Origin: Streptomyces antibioticus
GTDB taxonomy: Bacteria > Actinomycetota > Actinomycetes > Streptomycetales > Streptomycetaceae
Reading direction: 5' to 3'
NCBI RefSeq assembly: GCF_001514065.1
Contig: NZ_KQ948428.1
Span: 559,943 to 623,942, forward strand
DNA length: 64,000 nt
This document shows positions 12,979-47,192 of this stretch, piece by piece (the first letter of the stretch is position 1; each line of letters opens with the position of its first letter). A model generated the notes under the pieces. The model was not told the origin of the DNA. It saw only the letters and a program-made list of their open reading frames with translations, and did not search any database. The position numbers and the translations under genes are program-made.

Positions 12979-12993
12979 GTTGACAATGTCAAC
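12979..12993. promoter_or_regulatory. GTTGAC-N3-GTCAAC box 1 (perfect)
   Basis: A perfect 15-bp palindrome (GTTGAC AAT GTCAAC) between the helicase-PLD gene and the kinase-helicase operon, followed by AGGTAGGTGTGAT. A direct repeat of its right half plus flank (GTCAACAGGT at 12988-12997) recurs at 13011-13020. The same box and flank precede mcrB (40248-40262). It probably binds a regulator and may overlap a -35 element. Confidence 0.7.
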
Positions 12994-13085
12994 AGGTAGG
13001 TGTGATGCTCGTCAACAGGTGAAGGTATACGCTCCCTACGGAATGTACCCACCTTGTATGCGACGGGTGAGAACGGGGAGGGACA

Positions 13086-16000
13086 GTGGGCCAGGAGACG
13101 GTCGCCGGGCGGTTCCGGATCACGGGGATCCTGGGCCGCGGGAACATGGGCGAGGTACACCGTGCCGAAGACCTTCAGGCCGCCCCTGACTCCCCGCACC
13201 GGCAGGTCGCCGTGAAGACCGTGCTGCGGAGCCGCACCGGGATTGCCGTCGATGCGTCGGGGTCCGGCAAGGAGATCGACCGCTTCCGCCGTGAAGTGCG
13301 GATCATGCGCATGCTCTCCCAGGGGCACCCGAACCTCACCCTGCTGATCGACGGCGGTGTGGACGAGGCGCCGGGCGGCAGCGGACTGCCCTATCTGGCC
13401 ATGGAGTTGCTGGACGGCCATCCGCTCGCCGACCTCATCGACGAAGAACCCCAGCTGCCGGTCTCCTGGGTCGCCGCCCTCGGGGCGCAGCTCGCCGCCG
13501 GTCTTGCCGCCGCGCACACCGCGGGGGTGGTCCACCGCGATCTGAAGCCGGCCAATGCGATGCTGACCCGCGACGGCACCGTCAAGGTCCTCGACTTCGG
13601 TATGGGTTCGGTCGTCGACGATCCCGATCAGACGCGGCTGACCAGTACGGGAGTCAGCGTCGGCACGGCTCGCTACATGGCGCCCGAGCAGTTCCGTGCC
13701 GAACGCGTCTCCGCCTCCGCCGATCTCTACGCGCTCGGCTGCATCCTGTACGAACTGCTGATAGGACGGCCGCCGTTCTCCGCGAGAACCCCCTACGAGC
13801 TCTCCGAACAGCATCAGCACGAGCGGCCGCCGCGGCTGACCCTGGTGCGCCCGGATCTGCCCGCCGAGCTGGTCCGGCTGGTGGAGCGCCTCTTGGAGAA
13901 GGACGCCGAACTCCGGCCCGACAACGCCGCCTTGGTCCGTGAGGCGCTGGTCCCGCTCGCCTTCGCACCGGACGACACGGCCGCCCTGCTGGCTCCGCAC
14001 TGGCAAGTCATGGACCCGGTGGCGCGACTGCGCGCCCTCCTCCCCCGGCCCACCCCGGCCGCACCTACGCCCGTACCGCGCAGAGAGCCTCGTCTGCCCG
14101 AGGCGATGGACGTCTTCGGTATCCACTCCGATCTGATCAGCGAGTACGAGAGCTTCACCAGGAGCGCGACGGTGATCCGGGACGCCCGTATCGCCGGCTT
14201 CGTAGAGGACGATCTGGCGGCGAAGTCCCAGTGGCCCGACCCCTGGTTGTCGCTGAACCCGTTCTTCGCGGACGGCGGTCAGGTCACCGATCTCGTGCGA
14301 GACGGCGTGCTCCACCCGAAGTGCGCGGAGATCTTCCAGGCCGACAAGAAGGAGAGCTCGCCGCGCCCCGACGGGCGTCCGCTGACCTTCCACCTCCATC
14401 AGCGGCAGGCGATCGAAGCCGCACAGGCGGGCGACTCCTACGTGCTCACCACGGGCACCGGTTCCGGCAAGTCGCTGTCGTACATCGTCCCGATCGTGGA
14501 CCGGGTGCTGAAGGAACGTCAGGCGGCCGGCCCCGATGCGGCTCGCCGGGTGCGAGCGATCGTCGTCTACCCGATGAACGCGCTGGCCAACTCGCAGTTG
14601 GGCGAGTTGGAGAAGTATCTGCGCCATGGCTTCGGAAAGGGCCGGGAGCCGGTCACCTTCGCCCGCTACACCGGTCAGGAGTCCAAGGAGGACCGTCGGG
14701 AGCTGCGCAAGAACCCTCCGGACATCCTGCTGACCAACTACGTGATGCTGGAGCTGATGCTGACCCGGCCGGACGACCGGTCCAGCCTGATCCGCATGGC
14801 CGAGGGGCTGCAGTTCCTCGTCTTCGACGAGCTGCACACCTACCGCGGCCGGCAGGGCGCGGACGTGGCGTTCCTGATCCGCCGGGTGCGTGAGGCCTGC
14901 CGCGCGTCCACGACCCTCCAGTGCATCGGCACCTCGGCGACCATGTCCACCGAGGGCTCCTGGGAGGACCAGCAGCGTGAGGTGGCGAGGGTCGCCGGCC
15001 GGTTGTTCGGTACGACGGTGCTGCCGAAGCGGGTCATCGGCGAAACTCTGGTGCGGGCGACCGACGAGGCCCCCGAGAGCCTGCCCGCCGAGCGGCTTCG
15101 GGTGCCGGCCGCGCCCCGCTCGTACGACGCGTTGACGAAGGACCCGCTGGCCCGCTGGGTGGAGTCCCGGTTCGGTCTGGAGCGCGAGGAAGGGACGGAA
15201 CGGCTACGGCGCTGCGCCCCGGGCACCGTCGAGGCGGCGGCGGCCGAGCTGGCCGCGGCGTCCGGGGTACCCGAGGAGACCGTGCGGGAGGCGATCCGGA
15301 CGACCCTGGAGGCGGGCGCGCAGGCCAAGCATCCGGTGACCGAGCGGCCGCTGTTCGCGTTCCGGCTGCACCAGTTCCTATCCAAGGGCGACACCGTCTT
15401 CACCACGCTCGAGGATCCGCTGACCCGGCCGCTGACCCGCACCTACCAGCTGGAACAGCCGGACAGCGACGGCAAGCCGCTGTTCCCGCTGGCGTTCTGC
15501 CGTGAGTGCGGCCAGGAATACCTGACGGTCTGGCGGACGGAGAAGGACGGCGCGTTCCGGTACGAGCCGCGCCGCGACACCTCCGCTTCGGGCGGCCGCG
15601 AGGGCGAGGGCTACCTCTACCTGGGCATGCCCGGCGAGGACTACGAATGGCCGGCCGATGCGCAGAAGGCCGTGGACGACCGGCGGTTGCCGGAGTCCTG
15701 GCTGGAGTCGGACGCGCAGGGTGTGACGGTCGTCAAGAAGTCCTACCGGCCCCGGGTGCCCAAGCGAGTCGTCGTGGACGCCCACGGCCGGGAGTCGGGT
15801 GAGGGGCTGGTGGCGGCGTTCGTCCCGGCGCCGTTCCTGTTCTGTGTGCACTGCCAGGTGTCCTACGAGCAGACCCGCGGCCGGGACTTCGCCAAACTGG
15901 CCACCCTGGACCAGGAGGGGCGTTCCTCGGCGACCTCGCTGATCTCCGCGTCGATCGTGAAGTCACTGCGGGCGGTGCCGGAGGACAGCCTGGGCAAGGA

Positions 16001-19000
16001 GGCGCGCAAGCTCCTGACCTTCGTGGACAACCGGCAGGACGCCTCGCTGCAGGCCGGGCACTTCAACGACTTCGCCCAGGTGACCCAGTTGCGGGGCGCC
16101 CTGTACCAAGCCGCGGTGCGGGCCGGTGAGGAGGGCCTCAGCCACGACGACCTCGCCGAGGCCGTCACCGAGGTGATGGGTCTGACGCCCGCCGAGTTCA
16201 CGGACGTCGCGAACCTGACCCCGGCCATGGAGCGCCGGGCCGTGAAGGCCTTCCGGGACGTCGTCGGGTACCGCCTCTACCGCGACCTGGAGCGCGGCTG
16301 GCGTATCACGATGCCGAACCTGGAGCAGACGGGGCTGCTCAGGATCGACTACGAGGACCTGGACTGGCTCGCCGCCGCCGACGAGCGCTGGCAGTCCGCT
16401 CACGCCGTGCTGCGGGACGCCGATCCGGCGCTGCGCGAGGAGATCGCCCGTACTCTGCTCGACTTCATGCGGCGGGCGCTGGCCATCGACGTGCAGTACT
16501 TCCGCGACGACTTCGACACCCTGCAGCGAGCGAGCGAGGAGCGGCTGACCGGGGCGTGGGTGCTGAGCGAGAGCGACCGCCCGGCGGTCGGAACCGCCTA
16601 CCCGTACGGCTCGCGACCGGGTATGGAACGCTCTGCCCTGTTCCTGTCGGCCCGCGGCAAGTTCGGCAAGTACCTGCGGCGGAACATGCCCGAGCTGCGC
16701 GAGGCTTCCGTCACCCTGGACGACGTCCAGGGCGTCATCGAGGACCTGTTGAAGGTACTGGTCGACGCCGACCTGGTGCGCGAGGTGGACGCGACCCCCG
16801 AGCTCTCCGGCCCGGCCTACCGGCGCCGCGCGGCGCAGAAGCGCACCGGTTACCGAGTGTCGGCCGCGGCGCTGATTTGGCGGGCCGGGAACGGTGAACG
16901 CGGCGCGGTCGACCCGCTCGCACGCACCTACAGCAGCGGCGAGGGCCCGCGCGTGAACCCGTTCTTCCGCGACCTGTACCGCACCGCGGCCGCCGAACTG
17001 GCCGGTCTGTACGCACGCGAGCACACCGCCCAGGTCCTCCCGGAGGACCGGCTGGAGCGCGAGGAGCAGTTCCGCAAGGCCGAACTGCCGCTCCTGTACT
17101 GCTCGCCGACGATGGAGCTGGGCGTGGACATCTCCTCGCTCAACGCCGTGCTGATGCGCAATGTGCCGCCGACCCCGGCGAACTACGCGCAGCGCTCGGG
17201 CCGCGCGGGCCGTTCCGGTCAGCCCGCGCTGGTGACCACGTACTGCGCGACGGGCAACAGCCACGACCAGTACTACTTCCGCGACTCCCAGAAGATGGTG
17301 GCGGGCCAGGTGGCCCCGCCCCGCCTCGACCTGGCCAACGAGGATCTGGTCCGCTCGCATCTGCAGGGCATCTGGCTGGCCGAGACGGAGATGCAGCTCG
17401 GCATCGCGATTCCGGAGGTCGTCGATGTCGCCTACGACCCGGACGGGGACGACCGCCCCGATCCACAGATGCCGCTCCCGCTCCGCTCCGACATCCTCAA
17501 CCGGTCCCTGGACGAGGACGCCCGCAGACGCGCGGCCGCCACCGCCCGTACCGTCCTCGCCCCGCTGATCGCGGACTTCGAGTCGACCACCTGGTGGTAC
17601 GACGAGTGGATCGATGACCGGATCGAGCGGGCCCCGCAGGAGTTCGACGCCGCCTTCGACCGGTGGCGCCAGCTGTTCCGGGCCGCCGTCATCGACCAGT
17701 ACGAGCAGAACAAGCGGGTCGTCGACCACACCCTCACGCAGGGCGAGCAGAGCCGGGCGCGCAGCCGCCGCCGGGAGGCCGAGACCCAGACGAATCTGCT
17801 GCTGAACCGCTCCACCGACAGCAAGTCGGTGATGAGCGACTTCAACCCGTACCGCTATCTGGCGTCCGAGGGGTTCCTGCCGGGCTACAGCTTCCCGCGC
17901 CTGCCGCTCGCCGCCTACATTCCGCGCTCCGGCAACCGCCGCAACGCCGACGGCGACTATCTGCAGCGCCCCCGGTTCCTCGCGATCCGCGAGTTCGGCC
18001 CCGGTGCACTCATCTACCACGAGGGAGCCCGCTACCAGGTCACGCGGGTGCAGCTGCCGCCGGACGCCTCGGGCGAGCTGGCGACGGCGGAGGCCCGGCG
18101 CTGCGACGGCTGCGGCTACCACTACGTCGTCAAACCCGGCCTCGACCAGTGCGACATGTGCAAGGAGGAGCTGCGCGGCAAGCGCACCGGCCTGCTCCAC
18201 CTGCACACCGTGTACACCACGCCGCGCGAGCGGATCTCCTCCGACGAGGAGGAGCGCCGCCGGGCCGGTTTCCGGCTGGAGACCTCGTACGCCTTCCAGG
18301 ACCACGGCGCCCGCAAGGGACGCCTCACCTCGCATGTCGCCGACGGCGACGGGGCGCCCGTTCTCGATCTGGACTACGGCGACTCCGCGACCGTGCGCAT
18401 CACCAACCTCGGCCGCGTCCGCGACAAGGAGGGTGAGCCGGACGGCTACTGGCTGGACCTCGGCGACGGCCGCTGGCTCAACGACCGGGCCGCCGCCGAC
18501 GCCATCGAGGGCACCGGAATGCCGGTGGTCGACGAGGACGGCAACGAGAAGCGCCGCAAGAAGCGGGTCCTGCCCTTCGTGGAGGACCGCCGCAACATCC
18601 TCGTGGTCACCCTGGAGGAGCCGCTGCCCGAGCCGGTGGCGTGGTCGTTCCTGTACGCGCTGGAGCGGGGCATCGAGGCCGCGTTCGAGCTGGAGGACTC
18701 CGAGCTGACCGCGGAGCTGCTCCCGCCGGACGAGGGTCCGCGCCGCCGCATGCTGTTCACGGAGGCCGCCGAGGGCGGCGCCGGTGTGCTGCGCCGGATC
18801 CAGCATGAGAAGGACGCCCTCGCCAAAGCCGCGAAGACCGCCCTGGAGATCTGCCACTTCGACCCTGACACGGGCGAGGACGAGGACGGGCCGGCGGACG
18901 GCGAGAGGTGCGCCCGCGGCTGCTACGCCTGTCTGCTGACCTACGGCAACCAGACGCACCACCGTCAGCTGAGCCGGCACGCGGCCCAACCGCTGCTGCT

Positions 19001-19412
19001 GCGCCTGTCCGAGGCCCGCACCGAACGGGAGGACCGCGGCGAGTCCCGCAGCGAACGGTTCCGCAGGCTGGCCCCCGCGAGCACCTCGCCGACACCGGTC
19101 GAGGCGGATCTGGCGGCCCTGGTCGCGCAGGGCGATCTGCTCGGCTGGCTGAGGGCGAAGGGCTACCGGCTGCCCGACGAGGTGGAAGTCCTCGTCCCGG
19201 AGGCCGGGGCCTGCCCGGACCTCGTCTTCCGGCTGGACGGCGCCAACCTCGCCGTGTTCGTCGACCTCCCGGGCCGCGTCCCCGACTCCACCCGCGACAT
19301 CGAGGCCGGGTATCGCCTGGAGGACGCCGGCTGGGATGTCGTGCGGTTCCCGACGGACGCGGACTGGGACACCATCGCGGACACGAACGCCCTCTACTTC
19401 CATCTCCGTTGA
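13086..19412 (+). CDS. Hanks-type Ser/Thr kinase fused to a DEAD/DUF1998 helicase (DruE-like)
   Basis: A 2108-residue fusion. Residues 8-290 are a complete protein kinase: glycine loop GRGNMGEVH, catalytic Lys44 in VAVK, HRDLKPAN with Asp152, DFG with Asp170 and MAPEQF. After a Pro-rich linker, residues 340-2108 form a very large SF2 helicase: Walker A TTGTGSGKS (455-463), DELH near 580, the helicase-C block ending in AQRSGRAGRSGQ, a zinc ribbon (CDGCGYHY...CDMC, near 1672) and the MZB/DUF1998 cysteine motif (CARGCYACLLTYGNQ, near 1941). The last 100 residues resemble the PD-(D/E)xK-like tails of such helicases. The helicase part is of the DruE (Druantia) kind. GTG 13086 follows GGGGAGGG. First gene of a three-gene operon; the kinase may sense infection or gate the helicase (inference). 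Confidence 0.9.
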   Translation: MGQETVAGRFRITGILGRGNMGEVHRAEDLQAAPDSPHRQVAVKTVLRSRTGIAVDASGSGKEIDRFRREVRIMRMLSQGHPNLTLLIDGGVDEAPGGSGLPYLAMELLDGHPLADLIDEEPQLPVSWVAALGAQLAAGLAAAHTAGVVHRDLKPANAMLTRDGTVKVLDFGMGSVVDDPDQTRLTSTGVSVGTARYMAPEQFRAERVSASADLYALGCILYELLIGRPPFSARTPYELSEQHQHERPPRLTLVRPDLPAELVRLVERLLEKDAELRPDNAALVREALVPLAFAPDDTAALLAPHWQVMDPVARLRALLPRPTPAAPTPVPRREPRLPEAMDVFGIHSDLISEYESFTRSATVIRDARIAGFVEDDLAAKSQWPDPWLSLNPFFADGGQVTDLVRDGVLHPKCAEIFQADKKESSPRPDGRPLTFHLHQRQAIEAAQAGDSYVLTTGTGSGKSLSYIVPIVDRVLKERQAAGPDAARRVRAIVVYPMNALANSQLGELEKYLRHGFGKGREPVTFARYTGQESKEDRRELRKNPPDILLTNYVMLELMLTRPDDRSSLIRMAEGLQFLVFDELHTYRGRQGADVAFLIRRVREACRASTTLQCIGTSATMSTEGSWEDQQREVARVAGRLFGTTVLPKRVIGETLVRATDEAPESLPAERLRVPAAPRSYDALTKDPLARWVESRFGLEREEGTERLRRCAPGTVEAAAAELAAASGVPEETVREAIRTTLEAGAQAKHPVTERPLFAFRLHQFLSKGDTVFTTLEDPLTRPLTRTYQLEQPDSDGKPLFPLAFCRECGQEYLTVWRTEKDGAFRYEPRRDTSASGGREGEGYLYLGMPGEDYEWPADAQKAVDDRRLPESWLESDAQGVTVVKKSYRPRVPKRVVVDAHGRESGEGLVAAFVPAPFLFCVHCQVSYEQTRGRDFAKLATLDQEGRSSATSLISASIVKSLRAVPEDSLGKEARKLLTFVDNRQDASLQAGHFNDFAQVTQLRGALYQAAVRAGEEGLSHDDLAEAVTEVMGLTPAEFTDVANLTPAMERRAVKAFRDVVGYRLYRDLERGWRITMPNLEQTGLLRIDYEDLDWLAAADERWQSAHAVLRDADPALREEIARTLLDFMRRALAIDVQYFRDDFDTLQRASEERLTGAWVLSESDRPAVGTAYPYGSRPGMERSALFLSARGKFGKYLRRNMPELREASVTLDDVQGVIEDLLKVLVDADLVREVDATPELSGPAYRRRAAQKRTGYRVSAAALIWRAGNGERGAVDPLARTYSSGEGPRVNPFFRDLYRTAAAELAGLYAREHTAQVLPEDRLEREEQFRKAELPLLYCSPTMELGVDISSLNAVLMRNVPPTPANYAQRSGRAGRSGQPALVTTYCATGNSHDQYYFRDSQKMVAGQVAPPRLDLANEDLVRSHLQGIWLAETEMQLGIAIPEVVDVAYDPDGDDRPDPQMPLPLRSDILNRSLDEDARRRAAATARTVLAPLIADFESTTWWYDEWIDDRIERAPQEFDAAFDRWRQLFRAAVIDQYEQNKRVVDHTLTQGEQSRARSRRREAETQTNLLLNRSTDSKSVMSDFNPYRYLASEGFLPGYSFPRLPLAAYIPRSGNRRNADGDYLQRPRFLAIREFGPGALIYHEGARYQVTRVQLPPDASGELATAEARRCDGCGYHYVVKPGLDQCDMCKEELRGKRTGLLHLHTVYTTPRERISSDEEERRRAGFRLETSYAFQDHGARKGRLTSHVADGDGAPVLDLDYGDSATVRITNLGRVRDKEGEPDGYWLDLGDGRWLNDRAAADAIEGTGMPVVDEDGNEKRRKKRVLPFVEDRRNILVVTLEEPLPEPVAWSFLYALERGIEAAFELEDSELTAELLPPDEGPRRRMLFTEAAEGGAGVLRRIQHEKDALAKAAKTALEICHFDPDTGEDEDGPADGERCARGCYACLLTYGNQTHHRQLSRHAAQPLLLRLSEARTEREDRGESRSERFRRLAPASTSPTPVEADLAALVAQGDLLGWLRAKGYRLPDEVEVLVPEAGACPDLVFRLDGANLAVFVDLPGRVPDSTRDIEAGYRLEDAGWDVVRFPTDADWDTIADTNALYFHLR

Positions 19413-19461
19413 TCGCCACATCAGCACTCACCCATACGACACTCAGGAACCGAGAGATCTC

Positions 19462-22410
19462 ATGAGCCTCACGTACACAGCCGGCTCCCTGGTCGCCGCC
19501 CGGGGCCGGGAATGGGTGGTGCTGCCAGAGAGCGCCTCCGACATGCTGGTGCTGCGCCCTCTGGGCGGAAGCGAGGACGACATCGCGGCCGTCTTCCCCG
19601 CGTTCGAGGACGTACGGCCGGCCGAGTTCGCGGCGCCGAGCCCGACCGACCTGGGCGATCAGCGGGCCGCCGGTCTGCTGCGCACGGCGCTGCGCATCGG
19701 GTTCCGGTCGGGTGCGGGCCCCTTCCGCTCGCTGGCGTCGATCGCGGTGGAGCCCAGGGCGTATCAACTGGTTCCGCTCCTGATGGCGCTGCGGCAGCGC
19801 ACGGTAAGGCTGCTGATCTCGGACGACGTCGGCATCGGCAAGACGGTCGAGGCCGGCCTGATCGCCAAGGAGTTGCTCGCGCAGGGCGAGGCGACCCGGC
19901 TGGCGGTGCTGTGCTCCCCCGCGTTGGCCGAGCAGTGGCAGGGTGAGCTGCGGGAGAAGTTCGGGATCGACGCCGAGCTGGTCCTGGCCTCCACGGTGAC
20001 GCGGCTCGAACGCGGCCTGGAGCTGGGCCAGTCCCTGTTCGACAAGCACCCGTACACGATCATCTCGACGGACTTCATCAAGTCGACCCGGCACCGCGAG
20101 GACTTCGTACGGAACTGCCCCGACCTGGTGATCGTCGACGAGGCCCACAGCTGCGTGGCCGCCGACGACGCCGGGCAGGGCACCGCCTCGTCCTCCTCCA
20201 ACCAGCTCCGATACGAGCTGCTGCGCCGGATCTCCGCCGACGCCGACCGCCACCTGCTGCTGCTGACCGCGACCCCGCACTCCGGCAAGGAGTCCGCCTT
20301 CCGCAACCTGCTCGGCCTGGTGCGGCCGGAGCTCGCGACGGTGAATCTGGAGACCCCGGCGGGGCGGGCGAAGCTCGCCGAGTACTTCGTGGCCCGCAAG
20401 CGCGCCGACGTCCGCACCTACCTCACCAAGGAGGACGGCCTCAGCGACGACTCCCTGGCCGAGCGCACCGCGTTCCCGTCCGACCGGTGGACGAAGGACG
20501 AGCCGTACAAGCTCAGCCCCGCCTACCGGGCCCTGCTCGACGACGCCATCGCCTACGCCAGGGACCGCGTCCAGGCGGCCGGTGAGCAGGGCAAGCGGGA
20601 AGCCAGGATCGCCTGGTGGTCGGTGATCGCGCTGCTGCGCTCGATGGTCTCCTCCCCGGCCGCCGCCGCCCAGACCCTCAAGACCCGCTCGGAGTCCGCC
20701 GCCGCCCGCACCGCGCAGGAGGCGGATGTGCTGGGCGCGCCGGTCGCCGCCGACTCCGCCGAGAACGACCGTCTGGAGGGCATGGACGTCGCTCCAGGCG
20801 CCGCCGAGTCGGAGGAGGCGGGTGCCCGGCTGCTCGAACTCTCCCAGCGCGCCGCTGAGTTGGTCGGCCCGACCGAGGACGCGAAGCTCAAGGCGCTCAC
20901 CAAGCACCTGAAGAGCCTGATCGCCGAGGGCTATCACCCGATCGTCTTCTGCCGTTACATCCCGACCGCCGAGTACCTGGCCACCCAGCTGGAGGGCAAG
21001 CTCGGCAAGAAGACGAAGATCGCCGCGGTGACCGGCACCCTCTCCCCGCAGCAGCGGCTGGAGCGCATCGAGCAACTCGCCGCCGAATCCGCCGAGGAGG
21101 CGGGCGACCCGGCCGTCCGCCGCGTGCTGATCGCCACCGACTGCCTCTCCGAGGGCGTCAACCTCCAGCACTACTTCGACGCCGTCGTCCACTACGACCT
21201 GGCCTGGAACCCGACCCGCCACGACCAGCGCGAGGGCCGCGTCGACCGGTACGGCCAGAGGCGCGACCAGGTCCGGGTCATCACCATGTTCGGCGAGGAC
21301 AACGGCATCGACGGCAAGGTCCTTGAGGTGCTGTTCGCCAAGCACCGGCAGATCAAGAAGGACCTGGGCATCTCGGTCTCCGTCCCCGACGAGACGGCTT
21401 CCGGGGTGACGGACGCCGTGGTCGAGTGGCTGCTGCTGCACGGCCGTCAGGGCAGCCAGGAAAGCCTGTTCGAGCTCGACAGCCACCAGGAGTCCTTCGA
21501 GCGTATCGAGCGCGAGTGGTCCTCGGCCGCCGAGCGGGAGAAGACCTCCCAGTCCAAGTACGCCCAGCGCAGCATCCACCCGGAGGAGGTGGCCCGCGAG
21601 GTCGCCGCCGTACGGGCCGCGCTAGGCGGCGCCGACGAGGTGCGGGACTTCGCCCTGGAGGCACTGCGCGACCTGGACGCGGTGGTCCGCGACCCGCGCG
21701 ACGGCAGCGGCGACTTCACAGCCCAGCCCGGCGGCGCTCCCGCCGGCCTGCGTGACGCGCTCGCCGCCACCCTAGGCGGGCGACTGATCGAGGAGGACCG
21801 GGAGATCCCGTTCCGTACGACACCGGCGGTCGGCCGAGGCGAGGCCGCGCTGGTCCGTACCGACCCGGCGATCGGCGCGATCGCCTCGTACGTCCTGGAC
21901 TCGGCGCTGGACGCGAACACCCCGGGCCCGCGCCCGGCGCGCCGCTGCGGTGTGGTGACGACGGACGCAGTGACCATCCGCACGACCCTCCTGCTCGTCC
22001 GCTACCGCTTCCACCTCACGCTGCCGTCCCGTACCGGCGAGCGGCAACTGGTCGCGGAGGATGCCCGGTTGCTCGCGTACGAGGGGATGCCGTCGCGTGC
22101 CCGCTGGCTGGACGACGAGGCGGCTGCCGCGCTGCTGGCCGCGCGGGCCAGTGCCAACACCCATGAGCAGCTCGCCCGCAACCAGATCGGCCGTGCGCTG
22201 GACGGTCTGCCGGATCTGGCCGGGCATCTCACGGAGTACGGCACGAGCCTCGCTGCCGAACTCGACGCCTCGCACCGCCGGGTCCGCAAGGCGAACGAGG
22301 AGATCGTTCGCGGCCTGAAGGTCGTCCCGCAGGAGCCCGCCGACGTCCTCGGTGTGTACGTCTACCTGCCGCAGCAGCCCACTTCTACTGTGTCCGGAGC
22401 CGAAGCCTGA
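19462..22410 (+). CDS. drmD: SNF2-family helicase, DISARM DrmD-like
   Basis: A 982-residue SNF2/HepA-type DNA translocase: SDDVGIGKTVEAGLIAKEL (Walker A near 125), VIVDEAHS (near 224), TATPHSGK, and the C-terminal motif ATDCLSEGVNLQ...DLAWNPTRHDQREGRVDRYGQ (near 556-600). Length and arrangement match DrmD, the SNF2 helicase of class 1 DISARM, a restriction-like system that blocks phage DNA. ATG 19462 lies 49 bp after the kinase-helicase stop. The stop overlaps the next start by one base (TGATG), showing tight coupling with the DrmMI-like methylase; that pairing is the main support for the DrmD call. Confidence 0.82.
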   Translation: MSLTYTAGSLVAARGREWVVLPESASDMLVLRPLGGSEDDIAAVFPAFEDVRPAEFAAPSPTDLGDQRAAGLLRTALRIGFRSGAGPFRSLASIAVEPRAYQLVPLLMALRQRTVRLLISDDVGIGKTVEAGLIAKELLAQGEATRLAVLCSPALAEQWQGELREKFGIDAELVLASTVTRLERGLELGQSLFDKHPYTIISTDFIKSTRHREDFVRNCPDLVIVDEAHSCVAADDAGQGTASSSSNQLRYELLRRISADADRHLLLLTATPHSGKESAFRNLLGLVRPELATVNLETPAGRAKLAEYFVARKRADVRTYLTKEDGLSDDSLAERTAFPSDRWTKDEPYKLSPAYRALLDDAIAYARDRVQAAGEQGKREARIAWWSVIALLRSMVSSPAAAAQTLKTRSESAAARTAQEADVLGAPVAADSAENDRLEGMDVAPGAAESEEAGARLLELSQRAAELVGPTEDAKLKALTKHLKSLIAEGYHPIVFCRYIPTAEYLATQLEGKLGKKTKIAAVTGTLSPQQRLERIEQLAAESAEEAGDPAVRRVLIATDCLSEGVNLQHYFDAVVHYDLAWNPTRHDQREGRVDRYGQRRDQVRVITMFGEDNGIDGKVLEVLFAKHRQIKKDLGISVSVPDETASGVTDAVVEWLLLHGRQGSQESLFELDSHQESFERIEREWSSAAEREKTSQSKYAQRSIHPEEVAREVAAVRAALGGADEVRDFALEALRDLDAVVRDPRDGSGDFTAQPGGAPAGLRDALAATLGGRLIEEDREIPFRTTPAVGRGEAALVRTDPAIGAIASYVLDSALDANTPGPRPARRCGVVTTDAVTIRTTLLLVRYRFHLTLPSRTGERQLVAEDARLLAYEGMPSRARWLDDEAAAALLAARASANTHEQLARNQIGRALDGLPDLAGHLTEYGTSLAAELDASHRRVRKANEEIVRGLKVVPQEPADVLGVYVYLPQQPTSTVSGAEA

Positions 22411-26537: not shown

Positions 26538-26562
26538 CAGCACGTCACCCCGTCGAGAAGAT

Positions 26563-27758: not shown

Positions 27759-27944
27759 TCAGGCGTGACCCACGAACCGCACGAACGACCGCCAGCCCTC
27801 ACGGCCGACCAGGAACGCCGAGCGGCTGATGTCCTTGGAGTCCCGTACATGGACGGCCTGTTCGGCGATCGCGACCTCCACACAGTCGTCGCCCGAGCTA
27901 CCGCTATGGCTTGACTTGAACCAGGCGAGTTCCGTCGTGCTCAT
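27759..27944 (-). CDS. DUF397 small protein
   Basis: A 61-residue protein with the DUF397 signature: WFKSSHSGSSGDDCVEVA, a VHVRDSKD segment and a terminal W-x-SFVRFV block. In Streptomyces these are encoded directly after XRE-DUF5753 regulators, as here, with a 4-base ATGA overlap at 27941-27944. They act as small partners of the regulator in developmental control or conflict systems; the biochemical role is uncertain. Confidence 0.85.
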   Translation of the reverse strand: MSTTELAWFKSSHSGSSGDDCVEVAIAEQAVHVRDSKDISRSAFLVGREGWRSFVRFVGHA

Positions 27945-33764: not shown

Positions 33765-33769
33765 GGGTG

Positions 33770-38793: not shown

Positions 38794-38863
38794 GTGCGAG
38801 GTCCTTCGGATCAGAGTCGGAGGTCGGAAGGGGGGCGGCGGCAGGGGCTCCGTCGGAATCAGG

Positions 38864-40114: not shown

Positions 40115-40196
40115 AGTGCCCCCCACTTGAGCGTTAGAGCGCCCGGACCTCCGGCGAGGGGTCGGCCGAGCACAACTAGCACTCTAGACCCGACAT

Positions 40197-40211
40197 GTTT
40201 ACAACGTCAAC
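40197..40211. promoter_or_regulatory. GTTGAC-N3-GTCAAC box 2
   Basis: GTTTAC AAC GTCAAC matches the box at 11 of 12 defined bases. It is 83 bp upstream of the sigma-like gene and belongs to the divergent promoter region shared with mcrB. Nearby TGTTTAC recurs at 40226-40232. Confidence 0.55.
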
Positions 40212-40247
40212 GCATTATCTGGATTTGTTTACACGTAGGAGAGGTCG

Positions 40248-40262
40248 TTTGACGGCGTCAAC
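40248..40262. promoter_or_regulatory. GTTGAC-N3-GTCAAC box 3 before mcrB
   Basis: TTTGAC GGC GTCAAC matches the box at 11 of 12 defined bases and is followed by AGGTAAGGTGTGATCGTCG, almost the same flank as box 1 at 12979-12993. The conserved spacing and flank argue for a shared promoter architecture. It lies 51 bp upstream of the mcrB start. Confidence 0.65.
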
Positions 40263-40313
40263 AGGTAAGGTGTGATCGTCGGTGCAGGTCTCGCGACTCC
40301 CGGAAGGTCATCC

Positions 40314-42095
40314 GTGTCCCAGCCCGAACTCCTCCCCGGCACTCCTGAGTTCCGCATCAAGCTCCCCAAGGGCGGTGAGGCGCGCGGGCATCTGCTGGCC
40401 GAGTTCGGCGGCAACGGCACCCACAAGTTCCTGCTGCGGGAGGGTTCCCTGGTGGCCGCCGAGGCCTGGCCCGGGCTCGGCGACCACGCCCGCCGCAACC
40501 GCGCGGACCTGCGCGCGAACGGCGGCCTCGTCGACGCGACGACCGACCCCGGCCTGCCGAAGGACCAGCAACGGTGGAGGGCGGCCCGGGACATCGAGTG
40601 CAACTCCTCCTCGGCCGCCGCCGCGCTCGTGTACGGCTACGACGCCTCCGGCCCGGAGTCCTGGCGCACCGCGGAGGGCCATCCGCTCGCCGACTATCTC
40701 TCCACCGGCTGGCGTGCCCCGCGCAAGGCATGGCTGGTGCGCGGCTCCAACGTCTCCGGGCACAACCTGGTGCGGCAGTTGTGGCTGGCGGAGGGCTTCG
40801 TCTCGCTCGCGGGGGCGCATCTGCCGCCCATGGAGGAGACCGACCCGACCAAGAGCGCGCTGCGCCGCTTCGTCGAGGACGGATACGAGGGGGCGGCCTC
40901 GTACAACCAGAAGCGGGGCCTGGTCGACGAGTTGCACGCCTTTCTGACGCAGATGCGCGTCGGTGACGTCGTGGCGACCATCAGCGACGGTCAGCTGCAC
41001 ATCGGGCACATCACCGGGGAGGCCGTACAGACCGCGTCGCCGGACGGGCTGTCGAATCTGCGGCGGACGACCGCCTGGCGGTCGGGCAGCCACCCATACG
41101 AGGAACTGCCGGAGGAGCTGCAACAGAAGCTGTCCGTCCAGCATGACGTGGTCGATCTGACCGCCGTTCTGGACGCGCTGGACGAGCTCATGGGGCTGAC
41201 GGACCACACGGCCCCCGTGGCGAGCGGGGAACTGGCCTTGCCGGACATCACCGACGCCCTGGCCGCCGAACTCCTCGTCCACGACCGTGCGTGGCTGGAG
41301 GAAATGCGGGAACTGCTCATCGACGAGCGGCAGTTGGTTCTGTACGGCCCGCCGGGCACCGGAAAGACGTACCTGGCGATGAAGCTGGCCGAGTACCTCG
41401 GCGGCGGCCCGGAACGAGTCAAGATCGTGCAGTTCCATCCCTCGTACGCCTATGAGGACTTCTTCGAGGGGTTCCGGCCCGTGGAGGACCCCGAGACGCG
41501 GGAGGTGGCCTTCCGGCTGACGGCCGGCCCGCTGCGGGAGCTCGCCGATCTCGCCTCTCGCGACGGCAACCGGCACATCCCGCACTTCCTGATCATCGAC
41601 GAGATCAACCGCGCCAATCTGGCGAAGGTCTTCGGCGAGCTGTACTTCCTCCTGGAGTACCGGACGAAGTCGGTCCGGCTCACCTACTCGGGGGACGACT
41701 TCGCGCTGCCGCCCAACCTCTTCGTGATCGGCACGATGAACACCGCCGACCGGTCGATCGCCCTCGTGGACGCGGCGATGCGGCGCCGCTTCGCGTTCGT
41801 GGAGCTGTCCCCGCGCACCGAACCGACCGCCGGGCTGCTCGCCCGCTGGCTGAAGCGCGAGGGCAAGGACCTGGAGCCCGCCCGCCTGCTCGACGCCCTC
41901 AACGCCCGTATCGACGACGCCGACTTCGCCATCGGACCGTCGTACCTGATGAAGCCGGGCGTGTATCGCGACGGCGGCCTCGAACGGACGTGGCGCACGA
42001 AGATCCTGCCGCTGCTGGAGGAGCACCACTACGGCGAGGGCCTCGACGTCGGCGCCCGCTTCGGCCTCGACGCACTGCGCGAGCAGCGCCCGTGA
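40314..42095 (+). CDS. mcrB: McrB-type AAA+ GTPase with DUF4357 and PUA-like N-terminal domains
   Basis: A 593-residue motor subunit of a type IV (modification-dependent) McrBC restriction enzyme. Residues 60-115 look like DUF4357 (AARDIECNSSSAAAALVYGY). Residues 125-250 are a PUA/EVE-like reader (KAWLVRGSN, MRVGDVVATISDGQLHIGHI), a likely sensor of modified bases. The AAA+ domain has Walker A GPPGTGKT at 345-352, IDEINRANLAKVFGEL, and the sensor/arginine finger MNTADRSIALVDAAMRRRF; MNTADRS is the McrB GTP signature. GTG 40314 follows GGAAGG. GTGA overlap with mcrC. The reader domains differ from E. coli McrB and would set a different target. Confidence 0.9.
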   Translation: MSQPELLPGTPEFRIKLPKGGEARGHLLAEFGGNGTHKFLLREGSLVAAEAWPGLGDHARRNRADLRANGGLVDATTDPGLPKDQQRWRAARDIECNSSSAAAALVYGYDASGPESWRTAEGHPLADYLSTGWRAPRKAWLVRGSNVSGHNLVRQLWLAEGFVSLAGAHLPPMEETDPTKSALRRFVEDGYEGAASYNQKRGLVDELHAFLTQMRVGDVVATISDGQLHIGHITGEAVQTASPDGLSNLRRTTAWRSGSHPYEELPEELQQKLSVQHDVVDLTAVLDALDELMGLTDHTAPVASGELALPDITDALAAELLVHDRAWLEEMRELLIDERQLVLYGPPGTGKTYLAMKLAEYLGGGPERVKIVQFHPSYAYEDFFEGFRPVEDPETREVAFRLTAGPLRELADLASRDGNRHIPHFLIIDEINRANLAKVFGELYFLLEYRTKSVRLTYSGDDFALPPNLFVIGTMNTADRSIALVDAAMRRRFAFVELSPRTEPTAGLLARWLKREGKDLEPARLLDALNARIDDADFAIGPSYLMKPGVYRDGGLERTWRTKILPLLEEHHYGEGLDVGARFGLDALREQRP

Positions 42096-43327
42096 CACTG
42101 CCCATGCCCGAGGTGTCCCTGCGCGAGTACGGACCCGCCGTCTCCGTCGCGCTGGACACCGAGGCCGGGCGCGCCCTGGCCGCCTCCGGGATCCTGCAGA
42201 GCGCGACCCCCGATCCCGGCCGTGGCGGCCACTGGCTGCTGCGGGCGGGCAGCCGCGTCGGCGCCGTGCGCACGGCCGGCGGTCAGGTCGTACGGATCAT
42301 GCCCAAGACCCCGGTGAGCCGGTTGTTCTTCCTCCTCGGGTTCAGCCTCGACCCGGCCCGCGCCTGGCGCGACAGCGGCGAGGGCACCGTGGACACTGGT
42401 GCCTACGACGATGTCGTGCCCGCCCTCGCTCATGCCGTGGAGCGGCAGATCGACGGGGCCCTGCGACAGGGGGTCCTCCAGGGGTACCGGGAGGTCGAGG
42501 AGACCGCGCTGGTCGTACGCGGAAGGCTGCGTGAGGCCGAGCAGATCCGGCGGCACTTCGGCCGTACGCCGCCCGTGGAGATCGCCTACGACGCGTACAC
42601 CGCCGACACCGCCGAGAACCGCATCCTGCGCGCCGCCACCGAGCGGTTGCTGCGGCTGCCGGGTGTTCCCGGTCCCGTCCGGCGGCGCCTCGCTCATCAG
42701 CAGGTACGACTGGCCTACGCGCTGCCGTTGATACGGGGGCAGGCGCTGCCGCGGTGGCAGCCGTCCCGGCTCAACTCCCGCTACCAGCCCGCGCTTCGGC
42801 TCGCGGAAGCCGTGCTGCGCGGCACTTCGCCGGAGCACCGGCCGGCCGGTGCCGACCCGCTCGCCGTGGACGGCTTCCTGCTCGACATGAACAAGTTGTT
42901 CGAGGACTTCGTGACCGTAGGCCTGCGCGAGGCGCTCAGGGAGCATGGTCTGACCGCGCGTCTCCAGGACCCCCATCACCTCGACCTCGCGGGTCGGGTG
43001 GGTATGCGTCCCGACCTCGTCGTCCGCACCGGTGACGGCCGTACCCCGCTGGCCGTCGTCGACGCCAAGTACAAGGTGGAGAAGGCCGACGGGCTCCTCA
43101 ACGCGGACCTGTACCAGGCGCTCGCGTACGCCACGGTGCTCGGTCTGCGCGAGGCGCATCTGGTGTACGCGGCCGGGCGGCAGCCCCTGCGCTACCACGA
43201 GGTGCGCGGAACGGCCGTGCGGCTTTATCAGCACAGCCTCGATCTCTCCCGCGAGCCAGACCAACTCCTCACCGCTTTCCGGGAGATCGCCGCACACCTG
43301 GCGTCCGGAAGAAGGGAAGTGACCTGA
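42092..43327 (+). CDS. mcrC: McrC-type nuclease subunit
   Basis: A 411-residue McrC homologue. The N-terminal half contacts McrB (LREYGPAVSV, RIMPKTPVSRLFFLLGF). The C-terminal PD-(D/E)xK nuclease shows MRPDLVVRTGDGRTPLAVVD with Asp308, Asp324 and Lys326 (VVDAKYK), the catalytic triad of the family. A GTGA overlap joins it to mcrB, and its TGA overlaps the ATG of the RelE-UvrD gene by one base, so all three are one translationally coupled operon. Confidence 0.9.
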   Translation: MTLPMPEVSLREYGPAVSVALDTEAGRALAASGILQSATPDPGRGGHWLLRAGSRVGAVRTAGGQVVRIMPKTPVSRLFFLLGFSLDPARAWRDSGEGTVDTGAYDDVVPALAHAVERQIDGALRQGVLQGYREVEETALVVRGRLREAEQIRRHFGRTPPVEIAYDAYTADTAENRILRAATERLLRLPGVPGPVRRRLAHQQVRLAYALPLIRGQALPRWQPSRLNSRYQPALRLAEAVLRGTSPEHRPAGADPLAVDGFLLDMNKLFEDFVTVGLREALREHGLTARLQDPHHLDLAGRVGMRPDLVVRTGDGRTPLAVVDAKYKVEKADGLLNADLYQALAYATVLGLREAHLVYAAGRQPLRYHEVRGTAVRLYQHSLDLSREPDQLLTAFREIAAHLASGRREVT

Positions 43328-45462
43328 TGCCTCGGCTCGCCTTCGCCCAGAGTTTCTGGGACGGCTACGACGCCCTGGAGAAGCCGGTACGGACCGGAGT
43401 GCGCAAGGCCATGGCGAAGTTCCAGGCCATGAGCGCGGCCGAACTCAACGCGGACAAGGGGCTGCATCTGGAGTCCGTCCAGAACGCCCGTGACCCGCGG
43501 ATGCGGACCATCCGCATCACCGACTTCTGGCGTGGTGTCGTCCTCGCCCCCGACGACGGCAGTGACATGTTCCTCCTGGTCAATGTCCTGCCGCACGACG
43601 ACGCCTACACGTGGGCGGCGAAGCGCCTGTACAGCGCGAACTCCGCGACGCGCGCCCTGGAAGTGCGCAACGCCGTCGCCCTGGACGAGCTGACACCGCT
43701 GTACGAGACGGCCGCGCGCACGGCTCCCCGGCTGCTGTTCGCGGACGTCTCCGACGGCACGCTGCGCGATCTCGGCATCGACGACCAAGTCCTGCGCGCC
43801 GCACGCTCGTTGGTGGACAAGGCCCAACTGGAAGCCTTCGCCACGCTGTTGCCGGAGGACCAGCTGGAGGTGCTCCAGTACCTCGCCGAGGGCTTCAGCC
43901 CGGAGGAGGTCTACCGGGACGTCGTGGCCGTGCGTCGCCCCGCCGACGCGCCCGCCGAACCGGTCGAGGACCTGGCCACGGTGATCACCAACACGTCCGC
44001 CCGCATCCGACTGGTCACCGGGCCGCGGGAGTTGGAGGAGATGCTAGCGAAGCCGTTCGCGGCCTGGCGCGTCTTCCTGCACCCCTCCCAGCGGCGCGTC
44101 GCCTACCGCACGTCGTACGGCGGCCCCATCCAGGTCACCGGGGGCCCCGGCACGGGCAAGACGGTGGCCGCGCTGCACCGGGTCAAGCATCTGCTCGGCC
44201 GCTCCGAGGACGGCCGCATCCTGCTCACCACGTACACGAACGCGCTCGCCGCCGGACTGCGCGAGATGCTCGGCCTGCTCCTCGACGAGGACGAGAAGCT
44301 GCTGGCACGGGTTGATGTGACGACGGTCGACGCCTGTGCCAACGGCGTTGTGCGCACCCACTCAGCGACCGCGCCGAAGCCGATCGGGGACCGGGAGCAG
44401 CGGCAATTGTGGGAGAAGGTGGTCAAGCAGCTGGACCTGCCCTTCACCGCCCGGTTCCTGGCCCAGGAGTACCGGCACGTCGTCCTCGGCCAGAACCTCC
44501 GCGATGTCGACGGCTACCTCGGCGCGAGCCGCCGCGGCCGCGGCACCGGTCTCGGCGCCGCGCGCCGCCGGGAGGTGTGGAGGGGCGTGGAACGGTTCGA
44601 GCAGTTCCTGCGCGACCGCGGCGAGACCACGCACCTGGGCATCTGCGCCCGTGCGGCGGAACTCCTCGCCGACGGGCCGGCGCCGTACGCCCATGTCGTC
44701 GTGGACGAGGCACAGGACCTGCACCCCGCGCAGTGGCGGGTGCTGCGTGCCGCCGTCTCCCCCGGCGCCGACGACCTGTTCATCACCGGTGACCCGCATC
44801 AGCGGATCTACGACTCCCGGGTGTCGCTGGGCTCGTTGGGCATCACCACGGCCGGTCGCAGTTTCCGGCTGCGCGTCAACTACCGCTCCACGGAAGAGAT
44901 CCTGGCCTGGTCGGCCCGCCTCCTCGCGCCCGTCACCGTCGACGCGCTCGAAGGTGAGGGGACGGACTCGCTGGCCGGGTACCGCTCGCTGCTCCACGGC
45001 GGCCGCCCTCGGGTGCGGGGGTACGCCACCCGGCAGGAGGAGACGGAGGCGCTGGTGGAGCGAGTGCGTGCCCTGGTCGCCGAGGGCTTCGCGCCGCACG
45101 AGATCGGTGTGTGCGCGCGTTTCAACCTCGCCCTGGACGCGGCCGAGGAGAAGCTGAAGGCCGCGGGGATTCCGGTGCTGCGGGTCAAAGGGCAGGTCAC
45201 GCAGGGGTCCGAGGGCGTGCGGCTGGCGACGATGCACGCGATGAAGGGACTGGAGTTCCGGGCGGTGTCAGTGCTCGGTGTCGCCGAGGGCACCGTTCCG
45301 TTCACCCGTGAGATCACCCCGCGTGAGGCGGACCCGCTGCAACATGACGCCGATCTGCTCCGTGAGCGCTGTCTGCTCTTCGTCGCCTGCACACGCGCGC
45401 GCGAAACCCTGAAGGTGTCGTGGAGCGGGACCGCGAGCCCCTTTCTCCCGCCCGTCGACTGA
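43327..45462 (+). CDS. RelE/HigB-like domain fused to UvrD/Rep helicase
   Basis: A 711-residue protein. Residues 1-115 have the look of the RelE/HigB toxin fold: FAQSFWDGYDALEKPVRTGV, MRTIRITDFWRGVVLAP, LLVNVLPHDDAYTWAAKRLY. After a linker, an SF1 helicase follows: Walker A GGPGTGKT (273-280), TTYTNALA, Walker B VVVDEAQDLHPAQW, GDPHQRIY, LRVNYRST, and C-terminal TMHAMKGLEFRAVSV and FVACTRARETL. Such proteins recur in actinobacteria and the RelE-like part may bind rather than cut RNA. One-base overlap with mcrC makes it the third component of this restriction operon, perhaps processing cleaved DNA. Confidence 0.82.
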   Translation: MPRLAFAQSFWDGYDALEKPVRTGVRKAMAKFQAMSAAELNADKGLHLESVQNARDPRMRTIRITDFWRGVVLAPDDGSDMFLLVNVLPHDDAYTWAAKRLYSANSATRALEVRNAVALDELTPLYETAARTAPRLLFADVSDGTLRDLGIDDQVLRAARSLVDKAQLEAFATLLPEDQLEVLQYLAEGFSPEEVYRDVVAVRRPADAPAEPVEDLATVITNTSARIRLVTGPRELEEMLAKPFAAWRVFLHPSQRRVAYRTSYGGPIQVTGGPGTGKTVAALHRVKHLLGRSEDGRILLTTYTNALAAGLREMLGLLLDEDEKLLARVDVTTVDACANGVVRTHSATAPKPIGDREQRQLWEKVVKQLDLPFTARFLAQEYRHVVLGQNLRDVDGYLGASRRGRGTGLGAARRREVWRGVERFEQFLRDRGETTHLGICARAAELLADGPAPYAHVVVDEAQDLHPAQWRVLRAAVSPGADDLFITGDPHQRIYDSRVSLGSLGITTAGRSFRLRVNYRSTEEILAWSARLLAPVTVDALEGEGTDSLAGYRSLLHGGRPRVRGYATRQEETEALVERVRALVAEGFAPHEIGVCARFNLALDAAEEKLKAAGIPVLRVKGQVTQGSEGVRLATMHAMKGLEFRAVSVLGVAEGTVPFTREITPREADPLQHDADLLRERCLLFVACTRARETLKVSWSGTASPFLPPVD

Positions 45463-45475
45463 CCGGCGGACCGGC

Positions 45476-47146
45476 TCATTCCTCCGGCGCCAGGGCGCCC
45501 GTGGCCAGACCGTCACGGGCGACCTCGGCGAGCTGTCGGCTCAGCTCGTCGACCTTGCGCATCCCCTCCTCGAACGCGGACACGGCACGGAAGGCAGCGC
45601 CGTACCGACGCTGCTCGTCGATGCCCATACGGGGGATGCGTGAGCCCTTGCCATCGAAGCGGTAGGTCCCGCTCGCGCTCGTGGACCTGCGGGCATTGGA
45701 CGAGCTGCGCAGGAATCCTTGCAGATAGTCCGTGTCGAGCTGCTCGCTGGCCGAGACGGGCTCCGGACCCTCGTAGGCCACAAGCCCGGCGCGGGCCAGA
45801 TCCGCGACGCTGGTGGTGGCGCCGTCCAGCGAGCCCGGCCCGCCGCCCGCCGCGAGTTCGGGCAGAAGGGCGGCGAGTTGACGGATCTGGTCCTCCAAAT
45901 CCTTGCGCAGGGCGACGTATTCAGCGGGATAGTCTCGGTGACGGGAACGGAGATGACTCCCGGGCGTCAGGTCGACCGTGTCGTCGAGGAGTTCGATCAG
46001 CGGCACGTCGGCAACCTGGTCGGGGCGTGGTTCCAGATCCCCGTCGGGTGGGTTCTCCGTCAGGTCGACCATCCTCACGGTGTGGTGCGTGTCCACCCCT
46101 TCCGTGTTCTCGGGGCGCTGGAGACACCACAGGTGCACCGGCAGGGCGTGCGAGGTCGCTGTCCCCGGCGGCAGGGCGATCACTTGACGCACGATGCCCC
46201 GGCGGACGAGTTCCGACCGGATGCGGCGACCGGCCTTGCGGTAGGCGACCGAGGCCGGCATGACCATGAGGACGTGGCCGCCGGGTGCGGTGTGGGCGTA
46301 GGCGTGCTGGAGCCAGGCCAGCTCCCCCTCGGCTTTGGACGGGGTGCCGAGGTCCCAGCGGGAGTCGAGCAGCAACTCCTCCCGCCCCCACTCGGTCACA
46401 CCGGCCGGAGGGTCACAGACGACCAGATCCGCCTTCAGGTCCGGCCATACGTCCGCACGCAATGAATCACCTGCCACGATGAGCACGTCGGAGCGGCCCA
46501 GGAGGTCGGCGCGGAGCTGTGCGAAGCGAGCGCTGTCGTCATCCACTTCCTGGCCGCAGCAGCGCGTCCCGGCGTCGGAGGCTACGGACAGCAGGAGCAC
46601 CCCGATTCCGCAGGCGGGGTCGAAGACCGTGGCGCCGGCCGGCAGTTCGGGGGCGAAGTGGCGGACGGCACGCACCACGCGCTCAGGGGTCACCTGGTCG
46701 GAGCCGGCCCGCCGAGCGGAATCCATAAACCGGTCAGTAAGTCCGTTTACAAGGTCGACGGACGATACGGTTCGGGCGAGCGCCTGCACCCGGGTAGCGA
46801 CGTCGTCTGGCAGCCCTGGTGCTTTCTGCCCGACCAGGGCCGCGGCGACCTGCGCCAGGCCCGAGACCATCTGTTCCCCGTACGCGGCCCGCATGGCCTG
46901 CCACAACTCGACCTCGGGTGACACCTCCTGGCCCTTGCGCTGCCGGTCCAGCCATTCCTGGACCTCGGCGAGCGCGTAGAGCGGACTGTTCGCGGCGCCT
47001 CCGGCCGGCGCGGGGAAGTCGTCGTAGCGCCGACGCCAGTTGGAGACAGCGGCCCGGGTGACTCCGGCCAGCCGGGCGATCTCGGCGCCGGTGACCAGTG
47101 GGCCGGCCGATGGAACGGCGTTGTCCGTCATACCTCCAGCGTACAC
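45476..47146 (-). CDS. N6-adenine DNA methylase (HsdM-like) with N-terminal helix-turn-helix
   Basis: A 556-residue class gamma adenine methyltransferase. Residues 15-70 are a MerR/excisionase-type helix-turn-helix (TGAEIARLAGVTRAAVSNWR, then W-L-D). SAM motif I is VFDPACGIGVLLL near 175, and the catalytic motif IV is CDPPAG in place of the usual NPPF/NPPY, so the first residue is Asp after Cys; activity is plausible but less certain. The C-terminal 130 residues resemble a short target-recognition half. No hsdR or hsdS is adjacent. GTG 47146 has AGGTG seven bases upstream, while ATG 47131 has GGAGG too close. It is convergent with the RelE-UvrD gene (13 bp gap) and divergent from TIGR04141 across a box. 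Confidence 0.82.
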   Translation of the reverse strand: MYAGGMTDNAVPSAGPLVTGAEIARLAGVTRAAVSNWRRRYDDFPAPAGGAANSPLYALAEVQEWLDRQRKGQEVSPEVELWQAMRAAYGEQMVSGLAQVAAALVGQKAPGLPDDVATRVQALARTVSSVDLVNGLTDRFMDSARRAGSDQVTPERVVRAVRHFAPELPAGATVFDPACGIGVLLLSVASDAGTRCCGQEVDDDSARFAQLRADLLGRSDVLIVAGDSLRADVWPDLKADLVVCDPPAGVTEWGREELLLDSRWDLGTPSKAEGELAWLQHAYAHTAPGGHVLMVMPASVAYRKAGRRIRSELVRRGIVRQVIALPPGTATSHALPVHLWCLQRPENTEGVDTHHTVRMVDLTENPPDGDLEPRPDQVADVPLIELLDDTVDLTPGSHLRSRHRDYPAEYVALRKDLEDQIRQLAALLPELAAGGGPGSLDGATTSVADLARAGLVAYEGPEPVSASEQLDTDYLQGFLRSSSNARRSTSASGTYRFDGKGSRIPRMGIDEQRRYGAAFRAVSAFEEGMRKVDELSRQLAEVARDGLATGALAPEE

Positions 47147-47177
47147 GGATCGACACCTGCATTCCAGAGTCTACTGC

Positions 47178-47192
47178 GTTGACAACGTACAC
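47178..47192. promoter_or_regulatory. GTTGAC-N3-GTCAAC box 4 (degenerate)
   Basis: GTTGAC AAC GTACAC keeps the left half-site and 10 of 12 defined bases. It is in the divergent promoter region between the methylase (start 47146) and the TIGR04141 gene (start 47251). The direct repeat CTACTGCGT at 47171-47179 and 47208-47216 flanks it. Confidence 0.5.

Follow-up and report, generated by a model that had tools for sequence, protein, structure and literature searches.

A conserved palindrome in a Streptomyces defence island as the probable binding site of a methylase-like protein, the likely common switch of several anti-phage clusters

The closest described counterparts of the regulatory arrangement considered here are the methylases M.Ecl18kI and M.SsoII. 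According to extracts of two reports (PMC3695355, PMC3978073), the N-terminal region of these enzymes binds a 15-mer inverted repeat, lowers expression of the methylase itself and raises that of its partner; the regulatory site is distinct from the methylation site, and the regulatory role survives loss of methylation. As regards the defence genes, an excerpt of the ARMADA preprint (Bell et al. 2025, PMC12458937) states that a DISARM-like cassette is often found beside McrBC. How multi-gene defence islands are switched is far less known than how they act. The subject of this analysis is a 64,000-nucleotide (nt) stretch of the Streptomyces antibioticus genome (contig NZ_KQ948428.1; hereafter, the window), which contains an island of ARMADA-like, DISARM-like and McrBC genes, a gene for a helix-turn-helix (HTH) methylase, and several copies of a 15-bp palindrome, GTTGACN3GTCAAC (hereafter, the box). 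Judged by its placement in related islands, the box is an old and genuine operator, and it probably serves as the binding site of a DNA-methylase-like protein that became the common switch of several anti-phage clusters.

Four boxes had been proposed in an earlier note on this DNA, and a pattern scan of the window recovers all of them, with no mismatch at 12979, one each at 40197 and 40248, and two at 47178 (Table 1). Box 4 is better fitted by its minus-strand reading, and the variant occurs at the same place in relatives. Allowing up to three mismatches gives 49 matches in the window, compared with 21.3 on average after shuffling, and none of 100 shuffles reaches 49; this excess proves little, most of the matches being weak ones in coding sequence. 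Across the genome the strict box (at most one mismatch) is hardly enriched, with 27 places versus 20 for a reversed control, three of the 27 lying inside the island. The relaxed pattern GTKDACN3GTCAAC has 22 unique places in the same genome, comprising boxes 1, 2 and 4, 18 places in reading frames, and one promoter, which belongs to a core HTH-methylase paralogue with the same HTH core. As the frame test by GC content at third codon positions (GC3) is crude, open frames being found over boxes 2 and 4 as well, the 18 frames were also run against Pfam; a domain was found in 15, and the other three (L219, L220 and L232; genomes and loci are given by our labels, G and L) are assigned by their GC3 of 0.87–0.94. 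The note had held that an equal frequency of the box in unrelated intergenic regions would speak against it, and the relaxed matches are instead confined to island promoters, reading frames and the one paralogue promoter. What speaks for a function is where the boxes lie and how well they are kept, not how many there are. Within the methylase coding sequence itself there is a two-mismatch match (46745–46759), and one-mismatch matches lie within the methylase genes of G085, G245 and G299.

Conservation was assessed by searching the sigma-70-like protein of the island in 392 Streptomyces genomes, which gave 45 places (own copy included) at E ≤ 1.2e-33. For 44 of these the island sequence was read (1,585,628 bases in total); the remaining one, in G099, lies on a short contig and was assessed separately, showing a one-mismatch box. 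The genomes are related, and the counts are not independent events. A box is present in every one of 30 kinase-helicase promoters at up to two mismatches and in 27 at up to one, compared with 0.43 and 0.01 boxes per set, respectively, in Markov-model shuffles of the same promoters. Control regions upstream of the UvrD, DrmB, SF1, McrC and PglX-like genes returned 0/107 (≤1 mismatch) and 1/107 (≤2). At up to two mismatches the sigma-gene promoter is boxed at 33 of 44 loci. The other 11 are ten genomes in which DrmA is oriented opposite to the sigma gene and a second copy in G386; in nine of these ten genomes the 20-kb stretch is free of any box with up to one mismatch, the gene start being estimated in several. 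At the same threshold, HTH-methylase promoters are boxed in 31 of 35 cases (27 of 29 loci plus the own copy, G289, G386 and G047). McrB promoters are boxed in 14 of 14 islands of the window type (with two mismatches in G166) and, within 500 nt upstream, in none of six others (G136, G306, G187, G296, G359 and G047); the McrBC link is thus confined to window-type islands. In G386 (L117), the sigma and methylase boxes are one identical, unusual 15-mer, GTTTACATCGCCAAC, repeated about 10 kb apart.

Half-site columns of the aligned boxes carry 1.70–1.82 bits versus 0.29–0.59 bits for the flanks; as the aligned sequences were selected by the presence of a box, the half-site figure is inflated, but the low flank figures are not. 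The box is deeply conserved in orthologous islands while the DNA around it has diverged, the opposite of what the note had named as its second possible refutation. The flank AGGTA(A)GGTGTGAT that the note described after boxes 1 and 3 is present, but a comparison of relatives sets it apart from the operator: where it follows the McrB box it forms a conserved −10-like hexamer, and after the kinase-helicase box it is not conserved. The unit GTCAACAGGT, with three exact copies in the window, was also tried as the true element and rejected, its second copy, at 13011, being kept in close relatives only.

The box is fairly likely to be the operator of a dimeric HTH protein, with the HTH-methylase of the island itself (45476–47131), an HsdM-like methylase that is probably impaired in catalysis and turned regulator, as the foremost candidate. 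The methylase HTH had already been suggested as a regulator, and it emerges as the best candidate through its co-occurrence with the box, its invariance and the box at its own promoter. All 34 sigma genomes that bear a box encode an orthologue (at least 57% identity), which is missing from all ten box-less sigma genomes, where the best long match reaches 46%, and present in one of 20 sigma-negative genomes. This single genome, G047, has a one-mismatch box at the methylase and McrBC adjacent to it. Neither sigma nor kinase-helicase is matched in the 20 kb of G047 examined; a PglX-like match (50%) starts at the edge, and the kinase-helicase trio may lie outside that stretch. The HTH helix, GVTRAAVSNWRRR, is invariant in all 35 orthologues. 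In all 35, motif IV consists of D/E-PP and then A, V, T or I, with the aromatic residue absent; NPPF is found in the solved HsdM-like enzymes that were aligned, and HPPF in the paralogue of the same genome. The altered motif suggests weak or no base methylation, and the protein may be a retired methylase that acts as a transcription factor. Its predicted structure (mean predicted local distance difference test score 80, predicted template modelling score 0.65) has an HsdM/PacII-like body and an N-terminal HTH, with helices at residues 15–22 and 26–35 and strands at 44–46 and 49–53. Beyond the first sample, 246 genomes of the class were searched, of which 17 have a match at E ≤ 1e-80; in G292, G361 and G582, the last from another family (82% identity), a box lies at −57 to −62.

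Several observations weigh against assigning the box to this protein. Four of the 35 methylase promoters (G099, G360, G166 and G057) have no box with up to two mismatches, and that of G289 is counted through a perfect box common to the divergent kinase-helicase promoter together with a match overlapping the −10. The methylase box of G223 has three mismatches. Among orthologues of the other family at 47–55% identity, two of six have a box (≤2 mismatches) and the remainder the left half only; five more distant methylases from outside the genus have none (0/5, ≤2 mismatches). HTH-methylase paralogues of other subgroups are boxless as well (0/3 at up to three mismatches; none at up to two in G117). 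The HTH is a weak Pfam match, with an E value of 0.009, below the cut-off. Moreover, the XRE-type DUF5753 regulator of the island co-occurs nearly as well, and since island genes travel together, co-occurrence is not independent evidence for each genome. Among the open-licence PubMed Central matches listed, there was no paper on the box or on the island methylase as a regulator.

That the DUF5753 regulator (27941–28834) binds the box and controls the operons is an improbable alternative, albeit the best placed of those considered. It is matched at 70% or more in 32 of 35 box genomes, two of these matches being partial, and among 29 other genomes a full-length match is seen only in G165 and a 137-residue fragment in G036. 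Its gene sits behind the PglX-like gene or the cargo of the latter in most islands, and identity between most islands is 70–90%. At the 70% threshold, however, it is absent from the box-bearing genomes G306, G136 and G047, its own promoter is boxed in 0 of 24 cases, and the 20 kb around eight further copies (63–91%; L156–L158 and L160–L164) contain no box with up to one mismatch. A regulator acting in trans from elsewhere in the host, possibly the core HTH-methylase paralogue (C8 of the same genome, about 499.7–501 kb), is less probable again. The paralogue has the same recognition helix core, and GTGAACCGAGTCAAC lies upstream of it in 13 of 16 fetched copies, but the paralogue and its GTGAACCGAGTCAAC site also occur in G087, where there is no box-bearing island, and presence of the box tracks the island methylase rather than the paralogue. 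The three paralogues lacking GTGAACCGAGTCAAC form a different subgroup by HTH sequence, and G117 also lacks the site; the surroundings of the paralogue site are themselves well conserved (0.86 bits). The copy in the same genome, L231 (C8, about 499559), has GTGAACCGAGTCAAC upstream and the HPPF motif mentioned above.

Two further readings can be set against the promoter architecture, for which hexamers were read by eye and spacings computed. On the sigma strand, the TTGAC of the box is followed after 18 nt by a TAGAGT-like hexamer. Past the box of kinase-helicase promoters, the pattern TA[CA]N[GC]T, picked after inspection, is found at 33–35 nt in 25 of 30 cases. Methylase promoters have the box 59–64 nt before the ATG in 27 hits, with a GTGTACGGT-like putative −10 near the ATG, and at McrB promoters a TAGGGT-like putative −10 follows the box after 3 nt. 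The palindrome could be read as two overlapping −35 hexamers, with the TTGAC of each strand serving one of two divergent promoters, as the 18-nt distance from box 2 to TAGAGT would allow. However, in the promoters of the kinase-helicase and methylase genes about 33–35 nt separate the box from the −10-like hexamer. This distance is too large for a −35, so that the box is not simply a −35 element; in addition, one half-site varies (GTTGAC, GTTTAC, GTGTAC, GTTAAC) while the other remains GTCAAC. As a mere −35 pair the palindrome was rejected on the spacing at these two promoters, and we give this reading very little credence. Just as doubtful is the proposal that the sigma-70-like protein serves as a dedicated specificity factor for the boxed promoters. 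It is encoded in 34 of 35 box genomes, and the two longer relatives tested (525 and 1271 residues) carry regions 2, 3 and 4. Against this, ten genomes with the sigma gene are boxless at that gene, G047 is boxed and has no close sigma homologue, and region 4 is unmatched in the window copy. The latter stops at 420 residues, as do its closest copies in G013 and G273. Sigma factors are not known to need palindromes, which also counts against such a role.

If the island HTH-methylase is the protein that binds, the placement of the boxes would suit repression at the sigma-gene promoter, where the box covers the putative −35, and at the McrB promoter, where it abuts the putative −10. In the promoters of the kinase-helicase and the methylase, the box would lie upstream of the −35 (centre about −54), a position suited to activation or modulation. 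In this way one protein could control two sets of genes in opposition, the sigma/DrmAB and McrBC operons on one side and, on the other, the kinase-ArmC/SNF2/PglX-like operon together with the gene of the protein itself; M.SsoII and M.Ecl18kI would offer a precedent for such opposed control, for a single restriction-modification (R-M) pair. Tentatively, this picture can be extended to a methylase that gave up catalysis and became the transcriptional master switch of a modular island of anti-phage genes, which new operons join by acquiring the 15-bp operator and in which the retained S-adenosylmethionine (SAM)-binding fold may sense infection, for example via the SAM level. If right, the assignment would unite ARMADA-like, DISARM-like and McrBC genes in one regulon that is open to direct test, with its operator and a candidate regulator, and would suggest a way in which further effectors come under the control already present in an island. 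The few methylases with a role as transcription factors would then be joined by one of the N6 type, perhaps catalytically retired.

The membership of this putative regulon differs in part from the six operons under one regulator that the note had envisaged. One type of operator is indeed found at the promoters of the sigma/DrmA/DrmB/SF1, kinase-helicase/SNF2/PglX-like, McrBC/UvrD and methylase units, but two of the proposed members are not supported. The helicase-PLD gene stands beside the kinase-helicase in only four of the islands examined, this one included, and G177, G245 and G151 are boxed at the methylase with no TIGR04141 match in the stretch examined. Both are probably passengers that merely share an intergenic region. 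The description of the whole as one composite defence system is fair for a core of sigma, DrmAB, SF1, kinase-helicase, SNF2 and PglX-like genes, which in eight of the ten distant islands first sampled is compact around one box between the sigma and kinase-helicase genes; the association of McrBC and the methylase with it is looser. In these distant islands the kinase-helicase trio is seen as fragments in G136, and none was seen in G306.

The block at 26.7–32.5 kb, which had been described as boxless, has no match with up to one mismatch here, but eight relatives are boxed within it. The 44 islands contain 74 boxes with up to one mismatch, of which 57 are at known promoters, three in high-GC3 frames and 14 elsewhere. 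Seven of these boxes, between the PglX-like and SF1 genes of G177, G153, G085, G049, G245, G166 and G299, read GTTGACNNCGCCAAC and lie 67–70 nt before a gene for a TPR protein, and the eighth island with the TPR gene, G151, has a two-mismatch box at −68. PADLOC gave no match in the two TPR-gene stretches tested; in G153 (L050) the boxed TPR gene is followed by an Hsp70-like gene. Boxes read by eye in G136 stand ahead of GTPase-like and ATPase-like genes. Different islands thus seem to put different cargo under one operator.

The features of the window are collected in Table 1, with operons inferred from spacing and strand. The minus-strand operon spans 32652–40126 (SF1 helicase, DrmB-like, DrmA-like and sigma-70-like genes), and the plus-strand operons span 13086–26537 (kinase-YprA helicase, SNF2 and PglX-like genes) and about 40314–45462 (McrB, McrC and UvrD-type helicase). 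In the window, the block at 26.7–32.5 kb holds an EcsC-family gene, the DUF5753 regulator and frames with no Pfam match. Most islands have a match over almost the whole length of the kinase-YprA fusion; a fragment is found in G136 and two pieces in G196. ARMADA type II is marked by a UvrD-type helicase that carries a RelE-like domain and comes after the methylase; here no RelE domain was listed by Pfam at E ≤ 0.01 for the UvrD helicase, which sits in a different operon from the PglX-like methylase. At the island edge, 8109–9638 encodes an HTH fused to an EPSP-synthase-like enzyme, with 95% identity in G013, G049 and G151; this gene may mark the integration neighbourhood.

Table 1. Boxes, putative promoter elements and genes of the island (window coordinates)
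Feature	Coordinates	Strand	Remarks
Box 1, GTTGACAATGTCAAC	12979..12993	+	in kinase-helicase promoter
−10-like TACGCT, kinase-helicase promoter	13028..13033	+	34 nt beyond box 1, putative
Kinase fused to YprA-type (DruE/ArmC-like) helicase	13086..19412	+	Pkinase, DEAD, Helicase_C, MZB; DruE3
SNF2 helicase (DrmD/ArmA-like)	19336..22410	+	same operon as kinase-helicase
PglX/DrmMI-like methylase (ArmB-like)	22410..26537	+	same operon as kinase-helicase
DUF5753 XRE regulator	27941-28834		Pfam
SF1 helicase	32652..33992	-	last gene of sigma operon
DrmB-like, MZB domain	33770..36310	-	PADLOC DrmB 226.1 bits
DrmA-like helicase	35650..38900	-	start approximate; PADLOC DrmA 672.8 bits
Sigma-70-like protein	38864..40126	-	region 2, partial region 3; region 4 unmatched
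−10 TAGAGT, sigma-gene promoter	40181..40186	-	18 nt from box 2 TTGACG, putative
Box 2, GTTGACGTTGTAAAC on minus strand	40197..40211	-	TTGAC half is the putative −35 of sigma-gene promoter
Box 3, TTTGACGGCGTCAAC	40248..40262	+	McrB promoter
−10-like TAAGGT, McrB promoter	40266..40271	+	3 nt after box 3, putative
McrB-like gene	40314..42095	+	start predicted from preceding GGAAGG
McrC	41990..43327	+	
UvrD-type helicase (GajB-like)	43327..45462	+	
HTH-methylase, proposed regulator	45476..47131	-	HTH about residues 12-63, HsdM-like domain, motif IV DPPA
−10-like TACGCT, methylase promoter	47138..47143	-	inferred
Box 4, GTGTACGTTGTCAAC on minus strand	47178..47192	-	methylase promoter

Compared with described defence systems, the island shares a sigma-70 protein with the MZA system, but the MzaA equivalog score is 118.8 against a cut-off of 800. 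It resembles class 1 DISARM in its DrmA-, DrmB-, DrmD- and DrmMI-like genes, and differs in a DrmD equivalog score of 311.5 bits, below the cut-off of 610, and in the addition of the YprA helicase, the sigma-like gene and McrBC; for the PADLOC scores of DrmA and DrmB (Table 1) no cut-off is given. The YprA-type helicase, for which DruE3 is the best PADLOC hit, is followed by an SNF2 (BrxHII-like) helicase and a PglX-like methylase in the same order as in ARMADA type I, as far as the available portion of the preprint describes it (PMC12458937). Relative to that portion, the helicase of the island has an additional N-terminal kinase, and the sigma/DrmA/DrmB/SF1 operon stands alongside; neither the word kinase nor the word Streptomyces occurs in the main text of the preprint. 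In pairing a dedicated regulator with a conserved palindrome of a defence island, the arrangement recalls the RptR repressor, which an extract of PMC12255303 presents as a small stand-alone repressor with a 6-bp palindrome and direct repeats in one promoter. The likeness to M.SsoII and M.Ecl18kI, as these are portrayed in the extracts cited at the outset, lies in an N-terminal HTH and a 15-mer inverted repeat at the own and partner promoters, here recognised by sequence only. Those enzymes are cytosine-5 methylases that act on one divergent R-M pair, whereas the island protein is N6_Mtase/HsdM-like, has an altered motif IV and would serve several operons. By analogy, the island HTH-methylase may work like a regulatory methyltransferase of the M.SsoII type, while not being a member of that group.

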